Origin: Bacteroidales bacterium
GTDB lineage: Bacteria; Bacteroidota; Bacteroidia; Bacteroidales; Bacteroidaceae
DNA length: 64,000 nucleotides
Direction: 5' to 3'
NCBI GenBank assembly: GCA_012729225.1
Contig: JAAYDO010000209.1
Coordinates: 1 to 64,000, forward strand
In this document: one piece after another, positions 30,658 to 36,198 of the stretch
Numbering within the stretch: the first letter of the stretch is position 1
Layout: each line of letters starts with the position of its first letter
Position numbers and translations under genes: made by a program
The notes under the pieces: model-generated
Seen by the model: the letters and a program-made list of their open reading frames with translations, nothing else
What the model was told of the DNA's origin: nothing
The model's database searches: none

Positions 30658-31123
30658 ATGAAGAAATCAAACTTTGCGCTGATCTCATGTAGCCTGATTG
30701 CGGTTCAGCCAGCAACGGCGTGTGAAGAAGGCATCCTCATAAAACGCATATCAGTGGATTTTGAAAATCAATCAGAAGACACAATTTATGTGTTAGACTC
30801 AGGTTATCCCCTTCCTCCTGCAGAAATCATTGGCTTATATCAGTATGGGCGTGGTAAATTCATACCACCTCATGAACATTTCCCACGTCCATATTGTAGA
30901 TGGAGTATATGAAATGGAGTACATTTTTGTCGTCAATAAAAAATTCTTGAATAAGTGTTCAATAGAAGAAATAGTTAGCAAGAACTATGTTGAGCATTAT
31001 CAATATACTATTCAAGAGTTAGAAAAGAAAAATTACCAAATAATCTACACTGGTCCTACCTCAACAAATGCGAGTAATCCAGAAGATGAGTATTTGAATA
31101 TAAATAAAGAAACGAACCAATAA
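30658..31123 (+). pseudogene. Frameshifted small secreted protein
   Basis: Two overlapping plus-strand ORFs appear to be one gene broken by a frameshift. The first (30658..30912) gives MKKSNFALISCSLIAVQPAT, a signal-like start, and continues ISVDFENQSEDTIYVLDSGY to PPHEHFPRPYCRWSI. The second, in the next frame, continues YEMEYIFVVNKKFLNKCSIE to the stop at 31123. The switch falls near 30900-30912. The N-terminal part resembles the next gene (YSFVNNSSDTLF against VDFENQSEDTIY). A single-base insertion or a 2-base deletion would explain it; a sequencing error is also possible. Function unknown. Confidence 0.6.
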
Positions 31124-31130
31124 ATTACAT

Positions 31131-31583
31131 ATGAACAAGTTAAAAGCAATTGCATTTTTATTACCCCTCTCTCTAATGGTGACAGTCTCATCGTGCCTTC
31201 ATTTCGGAGATGAAGAATTTAATAATGTGGAGTATTCTTTTGTCAATAATTCTTCTGATACTTTATTTCTCAAATGGTATATTCACCATATTGCTAAAGA
31301 TAATCAGAAGGTTAAATGTATATTATCAAGGAATGATACTATATTTCCATCGCAAACACTTGAAGGAAATTTTTTGTATCTAGGAACTGCTGATACTTGG
31401 GAAAATTTCTTTAAGATGGAGAATATAGACACTATCTATGTTGGGGTTTATCCTTCGTTTGTTGATGTGAAAGAGAGACAGATTTACGATTTGTCAAATG
31501 ATCCGTACTTATCTCGAATATATAAGTTACCTCATGAGAATGTTAATTTATCTCAGAAAATGATTACTATTGAATATCCGTAA
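31131..31583 (+). CDS. Small lipoprotein of unknown function
   Basis: This 150-residue product has a signal sequence ending in a lipobox-like VTVSSC, so the mature protein is probably a lipoprotein of about 130 residues. The rest is beta-rich (VEYSFVNNSSDTLFLKWYI, FLYLGTADTWENFF, DTIYVGVYPSFVDVK). It lies 7 bp after the frameshifted gene and shares its base composition, so both are probably one unit. Codon use is clearly more AT-rich than in flanking genes. No family recognised. Confidence 0.7.
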   Translation: MNKLKAIAFLLPLSLMVTVSSCLHFGDEEFNNVEYSFVNNSSDTLFLKWYIHHIAKDNQKVKCILSRNDTIFPSQTLEGNFLYLGTADTWENFFKMENIDTIYVGVYPSFVDVKERQIYDLSNDPYLSRIYKLPHENVNLSQKMITIEYP

Positions 31584-31860: not shown

Positions 31861-31886
31861 TTTATTGACAGCGACGTTAAATAAAA

Positions 31887-31920
31887 ACATCGGGCAATGA
31901 GATGCCTCATTGCCCGATGT
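31887..31920. terminator. Bidirectional terminator
   Basis: A perfect 15-bp stem (ACATCGGGCAATGAG / CTCATTGCCCGATGT) with a 4-nt loop lies between the lipoprotein (plus) and the convergent beta-helix protein (minus). The minus side is followed by TTTTTATTT and the plus side by CATTTTCTTTT. Confidence 0.88.
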
Positions 31921-31956
31921 CATTTTCTTTTCAACAGTTATTTTCTTTCAGCAGTA

Positions 31957-33156
31957 TCAGTTATCCACCTCACCACTCACTGTCCCGCCATTGTTCTTAT
32001 ACATGCCACCCACCTTGATGGCTTTAGACTTAGCACCGGTGTTATAGACTGCAATGGTTCCTGCATTGACCGTCATATTGCCATCCACCTTGATGCCCAT
32101 GCATCTGTGAGGGTCGGTAGTGTCTTCTGCAACCGTACATCTGCTTCCTCTGGCATAGATGGTGATGTTGGTTGTGCCGTTTTCCTCGCCTACAGTCATA
32201 TCCCCATCTGTCTGCATGCCCCTTGAACCATTGCTGTTGGCATGGATAAGGAAAGTGCCACCACTGATTTCGATATTTCCTTCAGCCTTGATGCCCTTAG
32301 CATCTTGAGCGTTGTCCAGTGTGATGTTCAACGAGCCTCCCTTTATGATCACGCCACCAGTGTTGTCTTCATCCACAATGATTTGGTTGCTGTTGTCTCG
32401 CTTGTATTCCACCTGAATGCCATCGCTCACTGTAGTGCTGGTGACATTCACCTCGCCACCATTCATCTGGAAGTGCTGACCAACATGAATGGCGTCATTG
32501 GCTGCCTTGAGGATATTGATGGTCTTGACTGTCTTCTTGATTTGCAGATACTCCTTTGCGGCAATGGCATGGTTGGCATTGCCTGTCACATTGAGTGTGC
32601 CTGCACCTGAAATCTCAAGGTGTCCCTTTGTGTAGAAACATGCCTTCTGAGAGCCTGAGACCGCATCAGCAAAAGAGTTGGTTGTGCCGTCTTTCATCAC
32701 AATCGCTATACGTTTGCCACACTGAATGTCGATAGCAGCACCCTTGGTAGAGGTGAGGCTCACACCGTTCAGTTGCACTGTCAGCTTGTATTCTCCATGA
32801 ATGGTGAGAGAACCGGCAGAACTGCTGCCACTCACCTGATAAGTCACTTCATCCGTGGTGGTTGTGCTGGTCAGCACCACATCTGGGCTGTTGCCACTGG
32901 CACATGTCACCACATCCTGCAATTGGCTTGGTATCGTGACAGTTGCTGTTGTCCCGTCAAACACCACCTGCACATCATTTCCCATCTGGGGCTTGGCGAA
33001 GGTGATGGAGTCTATGCCTTCTGTCAGACTGATTTCAAGTCCTTCGGAGATGTCTTGAGTTGTATATGTTCCGCCCTTGCAAATATAGACCTTCTGGGCA
33101 GAGGCAGAGGCAATAGAGATGATTGCCAACACTGCTATCGATAGAATCTTTCTCAT
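31957..33156 (-). CDS. Secreted carbohydrate-binding beta-helix protein, Cthe_2159-like
   Basis: The 399-residue protein has a signal peptide (MRKILSIAVLAIISIASASA). It then shows repeated short beta-strand units (GTLNVTGNANHAIAAKEYLQ, GGSLNITLDNAQDAKGIKAE, GGTFLIHANSNGSRGMQTDG), the hallmark of the Cthe_2159-type carbohydrate-binding family, a right-handed beta-helix described as binding pectin-like polymers. The N-terminus before the helix (KVYICKGGTYTTQDISEGLE) resembles a small Ig-like or linker region. It is the last gene of the VTC operon, 6 bp after the small secreted protein. What it binds here is unknown. Confidence 0.8.
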   Translation of the reverse strand: MRKILSIAVLAIISIASASAQKVYICKGGTYTTQDISEGLEISLTEGIDSITFAKPQMGNDVQVVFDGTTATVTIPSQLQDVVTCASGNSPDVVLTSTTTTDEVTYQVSGSSSAGSLTIHGEYKLTVQLNGVSLTSTKGAAIDIQCGKRIAIVMKDGTTNSFADAVSGSQKACFYTKGHLEISGAGTLNVTGNANHAIAAKEYLQIKKTVKTINILKAANDAIHVGQHFQMNGGEVNVTSTTVSDGIQVEYKRDNSNQIIVDEDNTGGVIIKGGSLNITLDNAQDAKGIKAEGNIEISGGTFLIHANSNGSRGMQTDGDMTVGEENGTTNITIYARGSRCTVAEDTTDPHRCMGIKVDGNMTVNAGTIAVYNTGAKSKAIKVGGMYKNNGGTVSGEVDN

Positions 33157-33162
33157 ATCACC

Positions 33163-33558
33163 TTATTTTTTTAGAAGTTTCTTTCCATTGACAATGTAAA
33201 AGCCTTTAGGCAGTTCAGACACTTTTGCGTTTATCCTTCTACCCATGAAGTCATAAATCTCCCCATCCTCTTTTCCTGGCTTCACACTGCCAGACTTCAC
33301 ATCGTCAATGGCAACAAGACCATTGTCGGTGAAGAAGAAGAGACGCTTGACCAATGAGGTCTGAATCTCCTTGGTGGTATTGTCCTTGTAGATGACCTTG
33401 ATGACACCATCCTCAAAGACAACTTTCTGAATATTTTCAACAGCCTCAATCTTTGTGTCCTGATTGTCGGTAGCAGACAGATAATAGAGGTTGAAGTCTT
33501 CGGCAAAAGCCGAGATGCCGAGCACAAATGCCACGAACAGATAGAGAATCCTTTTCAT
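33163..33558 (-). CDS. Small secreted protein with a sorting-like C-terminus
   Basis: The ATG at 33558 (MKRILYLFVAFVLGISAFA) gives a signal peptide and a 131-residue protein. The middle (TKIEAVENIQKVVFEDGVIK) repeats short beta units, and the C-terminus (GEIYDFMGRRINAKVSELPK followed by GFYIVNGKKLLKK) resembles the T9SS-type or related C-terminal domain found on secreted Bacteroidetes proteins. It lies one base after the DUF2490 gene and 6 bp before the beta-helix gene. Function unknown. Confidence 0.65.
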   Translation of the reverse strand: MKRILYLFVAFVLGISAFAEDFNLYYLSATDNQDTKIEAVENIQKVVFEDGVIKVIYKDNTTKEIQTSLVKRLFFFTDNGLVAIDDVKSGSVKPGKEDGEIYDFMGRRINAKVSELPKGFYIVNGKKLLKK

Positions 33559-33559
33559 A

Positions 33560-34420
33560 TTAGAACTTGTATTTGTAACCAACACCTATGAGATGTCCGT
33601 TGGGTTCGTCATCATCGTTTTCTGTCTGATAGCGATAGAAGACATCAATTTTATTTTGTTTGTCCAACTTAATGTCTGTACCACCTGTAAACTTCCACTT
33701 GCTGGCATTGTAGTTGAGACCACAGCCATAATCGACCGAAGCATAAGGGTCGAGCGGACAATTCTTCAGGTCGTGTTGAACGGTCAGTTTGGAACGTAGC
33801 ACCACTCGGTCTTTAGGCTGATAGTCTTTTCTTTCGCTTGATTTCACATAAAGGATGTCGCTCTCGTTGAAGCGATATTTGTCTGTAGTGGTGGATGCCT
33901 TGCAGAAGTGGGAGTATTGAAAGGTTTCCTTCAGCGAGAATTCCCAACGCTTGTTGGGTGTATAGGTAGCGGCAAATCCTGCACTGGTGCGATGACGATT
34001 GCGCCAGTATTGATGTTTGAGGTTATACCCTTCATAGTCCAACTGGGTGTATAAGCCCTTCACAGGATCGTTGTAGGTGTTCACATTGTATTTAGGATTG
34101 CATTCCGCCAAATTATTCACCCACATATATTCCCAACCTATAAAACCTTTGACGTCAAAAGAGGTGGTATTGTAGAGTTTCATGTCAAATGATGCACCCA
34201 CATCCCAGCGATCAATCTTGCGAGTGTTGTCTTGTGTGCGTGCATTTCCCTCCAGCGAGAACTTCATGCCCTTCTTGATTTTCTTTTCTACTCCAAGGGA
34301 GAAATCCATACCAAAGTCATCCTTCTGAGCCTGCGCTACAGCACACGAAGAACCTAATGCCAGAAGCAGCATCAGCCTGCGTCCGACTGTATTCCAACAA
34401 ACAAATCCTTGTTTAATCAT
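33560..34420 (-). CDS. DUF2490 family outer-membrane-type protein
   Basis: The ATG at 34420 (MIKQGFVCWNTVGRRLMLLL) gives a 286-residue product with a signal-like hydrophobic stretch ending CAVAQAQ, then antiparallel beta-strand-rich sequence with aromatic ends (FDVKGFIGWEYMWVNN, RWEFSLKETFQYSHF) and a C-terminal GHLIGVGYKYKF ending in Phe. This pattern fits a beta-barrel of the DUF2490 family. The ORF-track start at 34459 overlaps DUF4956 by 47 bp; the shorter start still overlaps by 8 bp, which suggests tight coupling. It may form an outer-membrane channel for the operon. Confidence 0.75.
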   Translation of the reverse strand: MIKQGFVCWNTVGRRLMLLLALGSSCAVAQAQKDDFGMDFSLGVEKKIKKGMKFSLEGNARTQDNTRKIDRWDVGASFDMKLYNTTSFDVKGFIGWEYMWVNNLAECNPKYNVNTYNDPVKGLYTQLDYEGYNLKHQYWRNRHRTSAGFAATYTPNKRWEFSLKETFQYSHFCKASTTTDKYRFNESDILYVKSSERKDYQPKDRVVLRSKLTVQHDLKNCPLDPYASVDYGCGLNYNASKWKFTGGTDIKLDKQNKIDVFYRYQTENDDDEPNGHLIGVGYKYKF

Positions 34421-35111
34421 ATTCCTTAGGGAGTTTCTGCACAGACTCGTCCTGCTCATCTGTGTTATAATAAATCTTGATCAGTGCCATGTCCTTGAGA
34501 AAGTCAATAGAGCCAACTGACACCTTGGTAATATCCAGTCCTGTGCGATTCTTCAAGTCTTCTATCAGTTCCTTGCGCATAGAAGGCTTGATCAGGTCTA
34601 TCTTGTCATACTTCACATATTTGGAAGAAAGGCTCTGACCCATCTTATTAACCTCGGCAATCCACACACCCAGTACAAACACGAGGTCTGTCAATATAAG
34701 TTCACCCATGCTGGTCATCAGTGGACCTGCAAACTCAGGATGCTTAGGACTAATGTCGGCAGCCCATGCCAAACCGTTGATAGCTGCCAAAGAAATAATC
34801 AAGAAGAGATAGGTCATCTCTCGGATAGGCACAGATTCCGTACGATAACGCATGATACAGAAAATGGCGAAGAGACCCATCGCTATGCCAGTCTTGATCT
34901 TGGCGTCACCCATCAGGTGAATCAACATAAAGATGCAGAAACCCACAAGGATGTAGGTCATGAAGAAGTCACGACGACGTGCCTTAGGAAAGTAGAATGC
35001 ACGTGCGATGATGATCGTGAAGATTGTGTTAATAACGAGGCGCAGCAAGAGGTCGAGAATACGGCAGGTATCGCTCGACAGCACTGCAAAAAAGTCGTTC
35101 ATTGCTTCCAT
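34413..35111 (-). CDS. DUF4956 membrane protein
   Basis: This 232-residue protein has about five hydrophobic segments (LRLVINTIFTIIIARAFYF, FMTYILVGFCIFMLIHLMG, TGIAMGLFAIFCIM, MTYLFLIISLAAINGLAWA, LILTDLVFVLGVWIAEV) and a cytoplasmic C-terminal domain of about 70 residues. It matches DUF4956, which is repeatedly found next to VTC polymerase genes and is thought to be their membrane partner. It lies 27 bp after the VTC gene. Biochemical function is unknown. Confidence 0.85.
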   Translation of the reverse strand: MEAMNDFFAVLSSDTCRILDLLLRLVINTIFTIIIARAFYFPKARRRDFFMTYILVGFCIFMLIHLMGDAKIKTGIAMGLFAIFCIMRYRTESVPIREMTYLFLIISLAAINGLAWAADISPKHPEFAGPLMTSMGELILTDLVFVLGVWIAEVNKMGQSLSSKYVKYDKIDLIKPSMRKELIEDLKNRTGLDITKVSVGSIDFLKDMALIKIYYNTDEQDESVQKLPKEYD

Positions 35112-35138
35112 ATAGTTTTGTTAGTGTTTTTGTTTTCG

Positions 35139-35933
35139 TCAGTTTAATTCGCGGTCAATGAAACTTCGTCCATTGATTTTCTCCAGACCACGAAGTTTAG
35201 CCTTGAAATTGTTTTGCTTCAAAGAGGCATCAGTCAATGCCATTCCTATGCAACACTTGGAGAACCCTGTAGGATGCACATGTATGTCTCGCAGAAGGTT
35301 GCACACAGGCGAGAATACATTTCCATCTCGCTTCAGTTCGATAATCACCAGTTGGTCTGTACCATGGTCTTGCAGTGTCTCGAAGTTGTGGAATCCTATG
35401 TTGAAATCAATGGTCAGACGTTCTGTCTTCTCCTTGTTCACCAGTGTCACTCGGTCAAACTGGTTTCTCACCACTGCGTTCAAACGATTCAGATTCAAGC
35501 CCGTCTTTCGCCTCACCAACTCATAAGCACCTTCCGTTGCACGAAACTCCTCCTGCGAAGGCACTTCAATGCGCTTCTTCTTGGTACGGGCATGATTGTT
35601 CTTGTTTTTCACTTCCAGAAAAGTCAAATCGCTTGCCACATACGTCCTCACTCTCACCTTCATGCGCCTTGCCCTCTTGTTGTGGTGCATCATATACATG
35701 TAATGATCGTCGGTGTCGTAATAAGTGGTCATATAGGGGATGATTCGTCTGTCCAGCGTTTCCTGCACATAGTACATATCCTGCGCAAGCTTCAGCAACT
35801 GCACAAGCTGGACTTTCGACGCCACATATTTGGTGTCGAGTCTATTCATCAGGCGAATGCCTGACATTTCTTCCAATGTGATAGGAGCCATCGAGTATAG
35901 AAGTTCCTTGATGGTACAGTCCACATTACCCAT
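35139..35933 (-). CDS. VTC-domain polyphosphate polymerase-like protein
   Basis: This 264-residue protein has the VTC fold, known in yeast Vtc4 as the polyphosphate polymerase that makes chains from ATP inside a basic tunnel. Tunnel residues visible here include NRLDTKYV near the N-terminus, RRMKVRVRTY, TFLEVKNKNNHARTKKKRIE, RLTIDFNIG and LVIIELKRDG. There are no transmembrane segments, so it is probably cytoplasmic and anchored through DUF4956. It is the first gene of the five-gene operon, with a -7 element about 90 bp upstream. The polymer and donor used here are inferred, not proved. Confidence 0.85.
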   Translation of the reverse strand: MGNVDCTIKELLYSMAPITLEEMSGIRLMNRLDTKYVASKVQLVQLLKLAQDMYYVQETLDRRIIPYMTTYYDTDDHYMYMMHHNKRARRMKVRVRTYVASDLTFLEVKNKNNHARTKKKRIEVPSQEEFRATEGAYELVRRKTGLNLNRLNAVVRNQFDRVTLVNKEKTERLTIDFNIGFHNFETLQDHGTDQLVIIELKRDGNVFSPVCNLLRDIHVHPTGFSKCCIGMALTDASLKQNNFKAKLRGLEKINGRSFIDRELN

Positions 35934-36025: not shown

Positions 36026-36033
36026 CAAAGTTA
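36026..36033 (-). promoter_or_regulatory. -7 element TAACTTTG before the VTC operon
   Basis: TAACTTTG on the minus strand fits the -7 consensus about 90 bp before the VTC start. A TTTG lies upstream at a somewhat long spacing of about 26 bp, so the -33 is uncertain. Confidence 0.5.
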
Positions 36034-36150
36034 AGACTTTTTTTTCTTCTTTATTGTATCAAAGGCATATTTTTCTGTTTTTTTATATTTTTACGCTTTA
36101 TCGCAAGACATATTCTACCAAATGCACGCTTCATTCAACGCCATAAAAGC

Positions 36151-36186
36151 AGAGTGCCATCAGGAACGACTCCCTAATGGCACTCT
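36151..36186 (-). terminator. Second hairpin downstream of carB
   Basis: AGAGTGCCAT and ATGGCACTCT form a perfect 10-bp stem. It is the second of two hairpins after carB, followed on the minus strand by GCTTTTATGG. Confidence 0.55.
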
Positions 36187-36198
36187 AACATGCTGACA

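Follow-up and report, generated by a model that had tools for sequence, protein, structure and literature searches.

A conserved operon linking a VTC-domain protein to DUF4956 and DUF2490 in Bacteroidales: a candidate trans-envelope module for phosphate polymer export

Introduction

The usual account of bacterial polyphosphate is of a cytosolic polymer that PPK enzymes synthesise. In yeast, the polymer is the business of the VTC complex, in which Vtc4 is the polymerase and Vtc1 and Vtc3 form a membrane channel (PMC9911596). Here we analyse a stretch of 64,000 nucleotides from a gut Bacteroidales bacterium of the family Bacteroidaceae (assembly GCA_012729225.1, contig JAAYDO010000209.1, positions 1 to 64,000; hereafter the window), in which five adjacent minus-strand genes encode a VTC-domain protein, a DUF4956 inner-membrane protein, a predicted DUF2490 outer-membrane beta-barrel, a small secreted protein and a Cthe_2159-family beta-helix protein. 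The explanation best supported by our analysis, to which we give a probability of about one half, is that this operon is a trans-envelope module for the synthesis and export of polyphosphate or a closely similar phosphate polymer.

The operon shares with the yeast VTC complex the same tunnel domain, the mapped active-site residues and a membrane partner. It differs in lacking an SPX domain, in having as its membrane part a separate five-helix protein of another family, in belonging to a bacterial envelope instead of a vacuole, and in the addition of an outer-membrane barrel. Among bacterial systems, the CotH-PPP-DUF4956-DUF4832 accessory genes of Gram-positive Pel operons place a VTC-type polymerase (PPP) beside DUF4956, as in the window, and the link between the two genes that the initial annotation of this DNA had taken as known is in print (PMC7112168). 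That accessory set comes with CotH, DUF4832 and Pel synthesis, whereas the window operon has DUF2490, a small putative type IX cargo protein and Cthe_2159, with no polysaccharide synthase and, as judged by Pfam, no CotH kinase. In the NELoc-2 locus of Clostridium perfringens, VTC-domain genes each adjoin a membrane protein of DUF4956-like size (PMC2879425, PMC11677781); this organism is Gram-positive and has no outer membrane, and the locus has CotH, glycosyltransferase and deacetylase neighbours, unlike the window operon.

Two further systems resemble the envelope part of the operon. Tripartite exporters built from HlyD-type membrane fusion proteins (MFP) and TolC find a parallel in DUF4956 elsewhere in the phylum, where its neighbours are an HlyD-like adaptor and a protein of TolC type; the window operon instead has the DUF2490 barrel in place of adaptor and TolC. 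The KdgM and NanC porins for acidic oligosaccharides, the lumen of which is basic, are likewise outer-membrane barrels, and NanC is among the fold matches of DUF2490, although DUF2490 has no clear sequence relationship to them, forms a larger barrel and occurs in another genomic context. A DUF4956-DUF2490 pair is present in Bacteroides thetaiotaomicron as BT3498-99, for which a change of -7.6-fold in iron starvation (p 0.175) is on record (PMC10434189), a value that we do not use as support. Our search of 5.4 million open-access papers, outside which lie most subscription journals and preprints, found only three that mention DUF4956, none naming the VTC domain and DUF4956 together and no description of DUF2490, HlyD or TolC coupled to the pair. 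The operon is apparently an undescribed, conserved trans-envelope version of the VTC-DUF4956 pair.

Results

The initial annotation had described five minus-strand genes that overlap or are separated by fewer than 30 bp and had called them an operon. All five open reading frames (ORFs) were recovered from the window at the same coordinates, and the gaps read from the sequence are 27 bp between the VTC and DUF4956 genes, 1 bp between the genes for DUF2490 and the small secreted protein, and 6 bp between the latter and the Cthe_2159 gene; the DUF2490 start is better set at the ATG at 34420, which gives an 8-bp overlap with the DUF4956 stop. The VTC, DUF4956, DUF2490 and Cthe_2159 identities are each borne out by a Pfam match, and NCBIfam contributed nothing of use.

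To this layout corresponds a strongly conserved gene order. VTC is found in 90 of 151 genomes of the same taxonomic family, always in single copy, and in 21 of 30 genera. Within a set of 76 family loci (75 retrieved, and the window), DUF4956 comes next after VTC in 75 and DUF2490 next after DUF4956 in 73, a Cthe_2159 gene lies downstream in 61, and the intergenic gaps are mostly short or overlapping. A scan of named genomes found the same order in Bacteroidaceae, Prevotellaceae, Muribaculaceae and Paludibacteraceae, Bacteroides cellulosilyticus and B. salyersiae being among the carriers, with the records from Muribaculaceae and Paludibacteraceae often lacking the secreted-protein genes. Because the order VTC-DUF4956-DUF2490-(small secreted)-Cthe_2159 is kept across the family loci and the named genomes, it reflects selection on the unit and not chance, and the objection that the five genes might not co-occur elsewhere fails because they recur as a fixed operon. 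We rejected the idea of a further downstream gene common to all loci, since no relationship links the genes that lie further along, pyrH being one example. What looked like a fused VTC-DUF4956 gene in B. cellulosilyticus (L163) was discarded, its open frame running through a stretch of N.

The VTC-domain protein (264 amino acids (aa); 35139..35933, minus strand) matches PF09359 with 89.5 bits against a cut-off of 23 (E 3e-25), and a profile of 32 relatives finds the yeast Vtc4 structures with an E value of 5e-12. Eleven active-site residues of Vtc4 could be mapped onto it: K200, R264, R266, E279, K281 and K294 correspond to K35, R94, R96, E107, K109 and K119 of the window protein, and R361, R373, E426, K428 and K458 to R161, R172, E199, K201 and K226. 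Each is kept in at least 30 of the 32 relatives, and R264A/R266A/E426N is the catalytic mutant that was used for the yeast VTC complex (PMC9911596). Hydrolase-type tunnel enzymes have four Glu at the positions of the four basic residues by which Vtc4 directs the chain away (PMC4641920). In the window protein the hydrolase acidic-patch position two residues after the metal Glu is Lys (K201, Vtc4 K428), and R31, K35 and K119, which may map to the rest of the patch, are also basic. A hydrolase-type enzyme was rejected because the acidic-patch position that can be mapped is Lys. Since the Vtc4 residues are kept and this position is Lys, the sequence is that of a polymerase-type triphosphate tunnel enzyme, and the protein is probably a polyphosphate polymerase. 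By Pfam it consists of the VTC domain only, with neither an SPX domain nor a Vtc1-type membrane domain. For VTC outside Bacteroidota, our comparison draws on the literature and three control genomes.

The DUF2490 protein (286 aa with a signal peptide; 33560..34420, minus strand; PF10677, E 8e-15) gives only weak porin matches by sequence alone. Its structural model, with a predicted local distance difference test (pLDDT) score of 92, consists of a signal peptide and a barrel of 14-15 strands, and the nearest solved folds are outer-membrane barrels. With lumen positions assigned by strand alternation, the charged lumen positions conserved in >60% of DUF2490 copies comprise 14 Arg/Lys and 2 acidic residues. 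The protein is thus confidently modelled as a porin-like outer-membrane barrel with a basic lumen. Copies linked to the operon are basic at positions 71, 81, 91, 142 and 164, which are mostly Q, N, N, E and Q/N in unlinked copies, and have Q168 in place of the R168 of the unlinked type, in a comparison that is confounded by lineage; distant linked copies have only part of this lumen pattern. The modelled positions suggest that the linked protein is specialised in its lumen, and we lean somewhat towards DUF2490 as the exit pore. The same genome also carries a DUF2490 paralogue (L247, G000:C36:5100-6300), close to the linked family (E 1e-43) and with a different lumen pattern.

The DUF4956 protein (232 aa; 34413..35111, minus strand; PF16316, E 3e-48) has a model (pLDDT 80) in which five membrane helices are joined by a ferredoxin/ACT-like domain at the C-terminus. 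Loop charges suggest a cytosolic position for this domain and for the conserved RYRTE..PIREMTY loop. Assignment to a known transporter fold was rejected (there was no PDB match, and Pfam on 52 relatives consistently gave DUF4956 only), and a likeness to MgtC in helix count and ACT-like domain was set aside after Pfam returned no MgtC match.

In a sample of 297 genomes from the phylum, all 48 genomes with VTC also have DUF4956, normally as the next gene. Elsewhere in the phylum we collected 38 VTC-DUF4956 loci, and in 20 of these an HlyD-type adaptor gene flanks the pair (assigned by Pfam HlyD_3 for two of the 20 and by profile and profile-profile comparison for the rest), whereas DUF2490 adjoins or lies near the pair in 13 and the two types of partner are found together in none. 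In three of the 13 (L119, L121 and L123) DUF2490 lies upstream and is of the unlinked sequence type, and in locus L115 it lies upstream with one gene between. The window operon, as judged by Pfam, has no HlyD-type adaptor and no TolC-type protein. Where DUF4956 occurs without VTC, 13 of 18 loci have an adaptor-sized gene directly after it and then a gene of ~410 aa. Pfam applied to three of those 13 adaptors returned HlyD-like matches for L252 and L257 and a biotin-lipoyl match for L259; applied to two of the ~410-aa genes, it returned a weak OEP match (E 0.002) for L252 and none for L259. In a fourteenth of the 18 (L264:2935-6200), DUF4956 has an adaptor of the VTC-linked type (E 1e-85) on one side and an OEP/TolC protein (E 1e-34) on the other. 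Because HlyD adaptors replace DUF2490 elsewhere and HlyD-DUF4956-TolC-type operons exist without VTC, DUF4956 looks like the inner-membrane part of an envelope export machine. These HlyD and TolC neighbours are the strongest sign of such a role, and DUF4956 is probably the export partner of VTC. Twelve of the VTC-less loci (L249-L258, L265, L266), all from one family, have the order DUF6580-like, DUF4956, adaptor, ~410-aa and ~240-aa gene; in L252, the one locus of this order run through Pfam, the matches were DUF6580, HlyD-like, weak OEP and short-chain dehydrogenase.

CotH kinase genes stand beside VTC-DUF4956 at three Bacteroidota loci (L116:4108-5448, L143:8543-11554 and L132:7599-10298), and one such neighbour combines a lamin-tail domain with a type IX sorting tail. 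The CotH matches have E 6e-55 in L116, E 2e-52 with a type IX tail in L143 and E 8e-9 in L132. Their adjacency, like the presence of CotH in Gram-positive Pel operons (PMC7112168), would fit an alternative in which VTC-DUF4956 supplies polyphosphate or phosphoryl groups across the membrane so that secreted proteins or glycans can be phosphorylated, a donor of the kind that CotH-type kinases outside the ATP-containing cytosol would need, with DUF2490 and the secreted proteins as targets or accessories. We consider this unlikely, since no CotH gene was seen beside the window operon, Cthe_2159 and the small protein hold that place in the family loci, and the barrel and adaptor partners indicate a conduit and not a donor only.

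The small secreted protein (131 aa; 33163..33558, minus strand) has no Pfam match itself. Three of four orthologues tested pass the cut-off for the type IX sorting domain PF18962, and GldM is present in the window's genome, so the sorting-like C-terminus reported earlier gains support from the orthologues. The Cthe_2159-family protein (399 aa with a signal peptide; 31957..33156, minus strand; PF14262, E 2e-41) matches the solved structure of Cthe_2159 (PDB 4peu/4phb) with an E value of 3e-10, and a check of its sequence found no recognisable sorting tail. We offer only tentatively that these two proteins bind the polymer, and their place in the mechanism would be the weakest step of the export reading. 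At one phylum locus (L146:5576-7375) a Cthe_2159-family gene lies upstream of adaptor-VTC-DUF4956, so that the Cthe_2159 link also occurs without DUF2490.

Cthe_2159 proteins are reported to bind cellulose and polygalacturonate (PMC6712302), the DUF2490 barrel resembles NanC, a porin for acidic sugars, and VTC-DUF4956 accompanies Pel polysaccharide operons (PMC7112168). An acidic polysaccharide might on these grounds be the substrate, in which case DUF2490 and Cthe_2159 would transport and bind an acidic glycan made elsewhere and VTC-DUF4956 would only regulate or energise its export. This we regard as improbable: the operon contains no glycosyltransferase, SusC/D or lyase gene, none was seen recurring beside it, and HlyD-DUF4956-TolC-type sets occur without adjacent glycan genes.

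The distribution of polyphosphate enzymes bears on where the product of a VTC polymerase would go. PPK1 was found in none of nine genomes of the genus (the window's genome and eight congeners), and neither PPK2 nor Ppx-GppA above cut-off was found in any of 31 genus members, of which 28 have VTC, including all ten that are at least 90% complete. Because the genus lacks PPK1, PPK2 and Ppx-GppA yet keeps VTC, cytoplasmic storage is argued against; with the usual enzymes of cytosolic synthesis and breakdown missing, an exported product would fit better than a store. Across the family, 10 genomes have both VTC and PPK1, 80 have VTC only, 38 PPK1 only and 23 neither, an anticorrelation (Fisher p 6e-11 by genome and 0.02 by genus) that shared ancestry inflates. 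VTC as a general replacement for PPK1 was rejected, as PPK1 is present in 267 of the 297 phylum genomes. Least probable of the alternatives is that the polyphosphate made by VTC serves inside the cell, in storage or stress, and that the envelope genes are passengers transcribed along with VTC. The family anticorrelation does look as if VTC had replaced PPK1, but the enzymes that normally turn polyphosphate over in the cytosol, PPK2 and Ppx-GppA, are absent from the genus, the adjacency of DUF4956 and DUF2490 is conserved too strongly for passengers, and PPK1 is retained in most of the VTC genomes found elsewhere in the phylum.

The boundaries of the operon can be proposed from pattern matches. 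A Bacteroidetes-type -7 box, TAACTTTG (36026..36033, minus strand), lies ~90 bp 5' of the VTC start codon and is the likely operon promoter. A strong terminator-like hairpin of 17 pairs 3' of carB (36150..36187, minus strand) is predicted to set the operon apart from that gene, and a second strong terminator-like hairpin, of 16 pairs with a T-rich tail (31886..31921, minus strand), stands at the operon end. Downstream, on the plus strand at 30658-31583, are small ORFs with no Pfam match, two of them with signal-like N-termini. In four Bacteroides-like loci (L063, L065, L076, L185) genes for a LytS-type histidine kinase and a LytTR response regulator lie after the operon, which they may regulate. 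Four other loci (L203, L212, L223, L226) are rearranged, VTC-DUF4956-DUF2490 being preceded by Cthe_2159 and a ~140-aa gene.

Discussion

Polyphosphate export accounts best for the observed gene set, its order, the catalytic residues, the predicted barrel with its lumen charge and the presence, in other lineages, of HlyD-type adaptors in place of DUF2490. In the mechanism that we infer for the product, the direction of transport, the coupling and the roles of the secreted proteins, a cytosolic VTC protein would polymerise phosphate from ATP inside its tunnel and feed the chain into DUF4956, the proposed translocase of the inner membrane; the DUF2490 barrel, with its basic lumen, would then offer the passage through the outer membrane. 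Outside the cell or in the periplasm, the small, putatively type IX-sorted protein and the Cthe_2159 beta-helix protein would bind the polymer, or an acidic glycan that the polymer meets. We put the full chain of steps at about even odds. The initial annotation had proposed a trans-envelope module, and the fixed operon, the polymerase-type residues, the porin-like barrel with its basic lumen and the HlyD and TolC partners strengthen that proposal, which is thus supported in part; polyphosphate as the product, its exit from the cell, and polymer binding or surface holding by the secreted proteins are its putative elements. The further notion of a signal made inside the cell found no specific support.

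Several findings weigh against polyphosphate export. In the open literature searched, no bacterial VTC protein turned up for which polyphosphate synthesis is reported, and PPK1 is almost universal in the phylum (267/297). DUF4956 has no PDB fold match at E<=0.001. The adaptor profile matched in no family locus, where the chain would still have to cross the periplasm, and 5 of the 38 phylum loci lack adaptor and DUF2490 alike. With regard to the barrel, five conserved lumen arginines are common to linked and unlinked DUF2490, the net charge per lumen residue is similar in the two so that the difference is positional, and the lineage confounding of this comparison arises from a control set mostly of other lineages.

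In broader terms, and at slightly less than even odds, the export reading would extend to a modular form of bacterial phosphate-polymer secretion, in which VTC and a DUF4956 translocase are combined with alternative conduits (DUF2490, or HlyD with or without TolC) and with surface effectors (Cthe_2159 or CotH), and which in this gut genus would be the only recognisable polyphosphate-making system. If the module does make polyphosphate and export it, a metal-binding polymer capable of acting on host cells would be displayed or released by common gut Bacteroidales, and a function would thereby be assigned to DUF4956 and to a subfamily of DUF2490.

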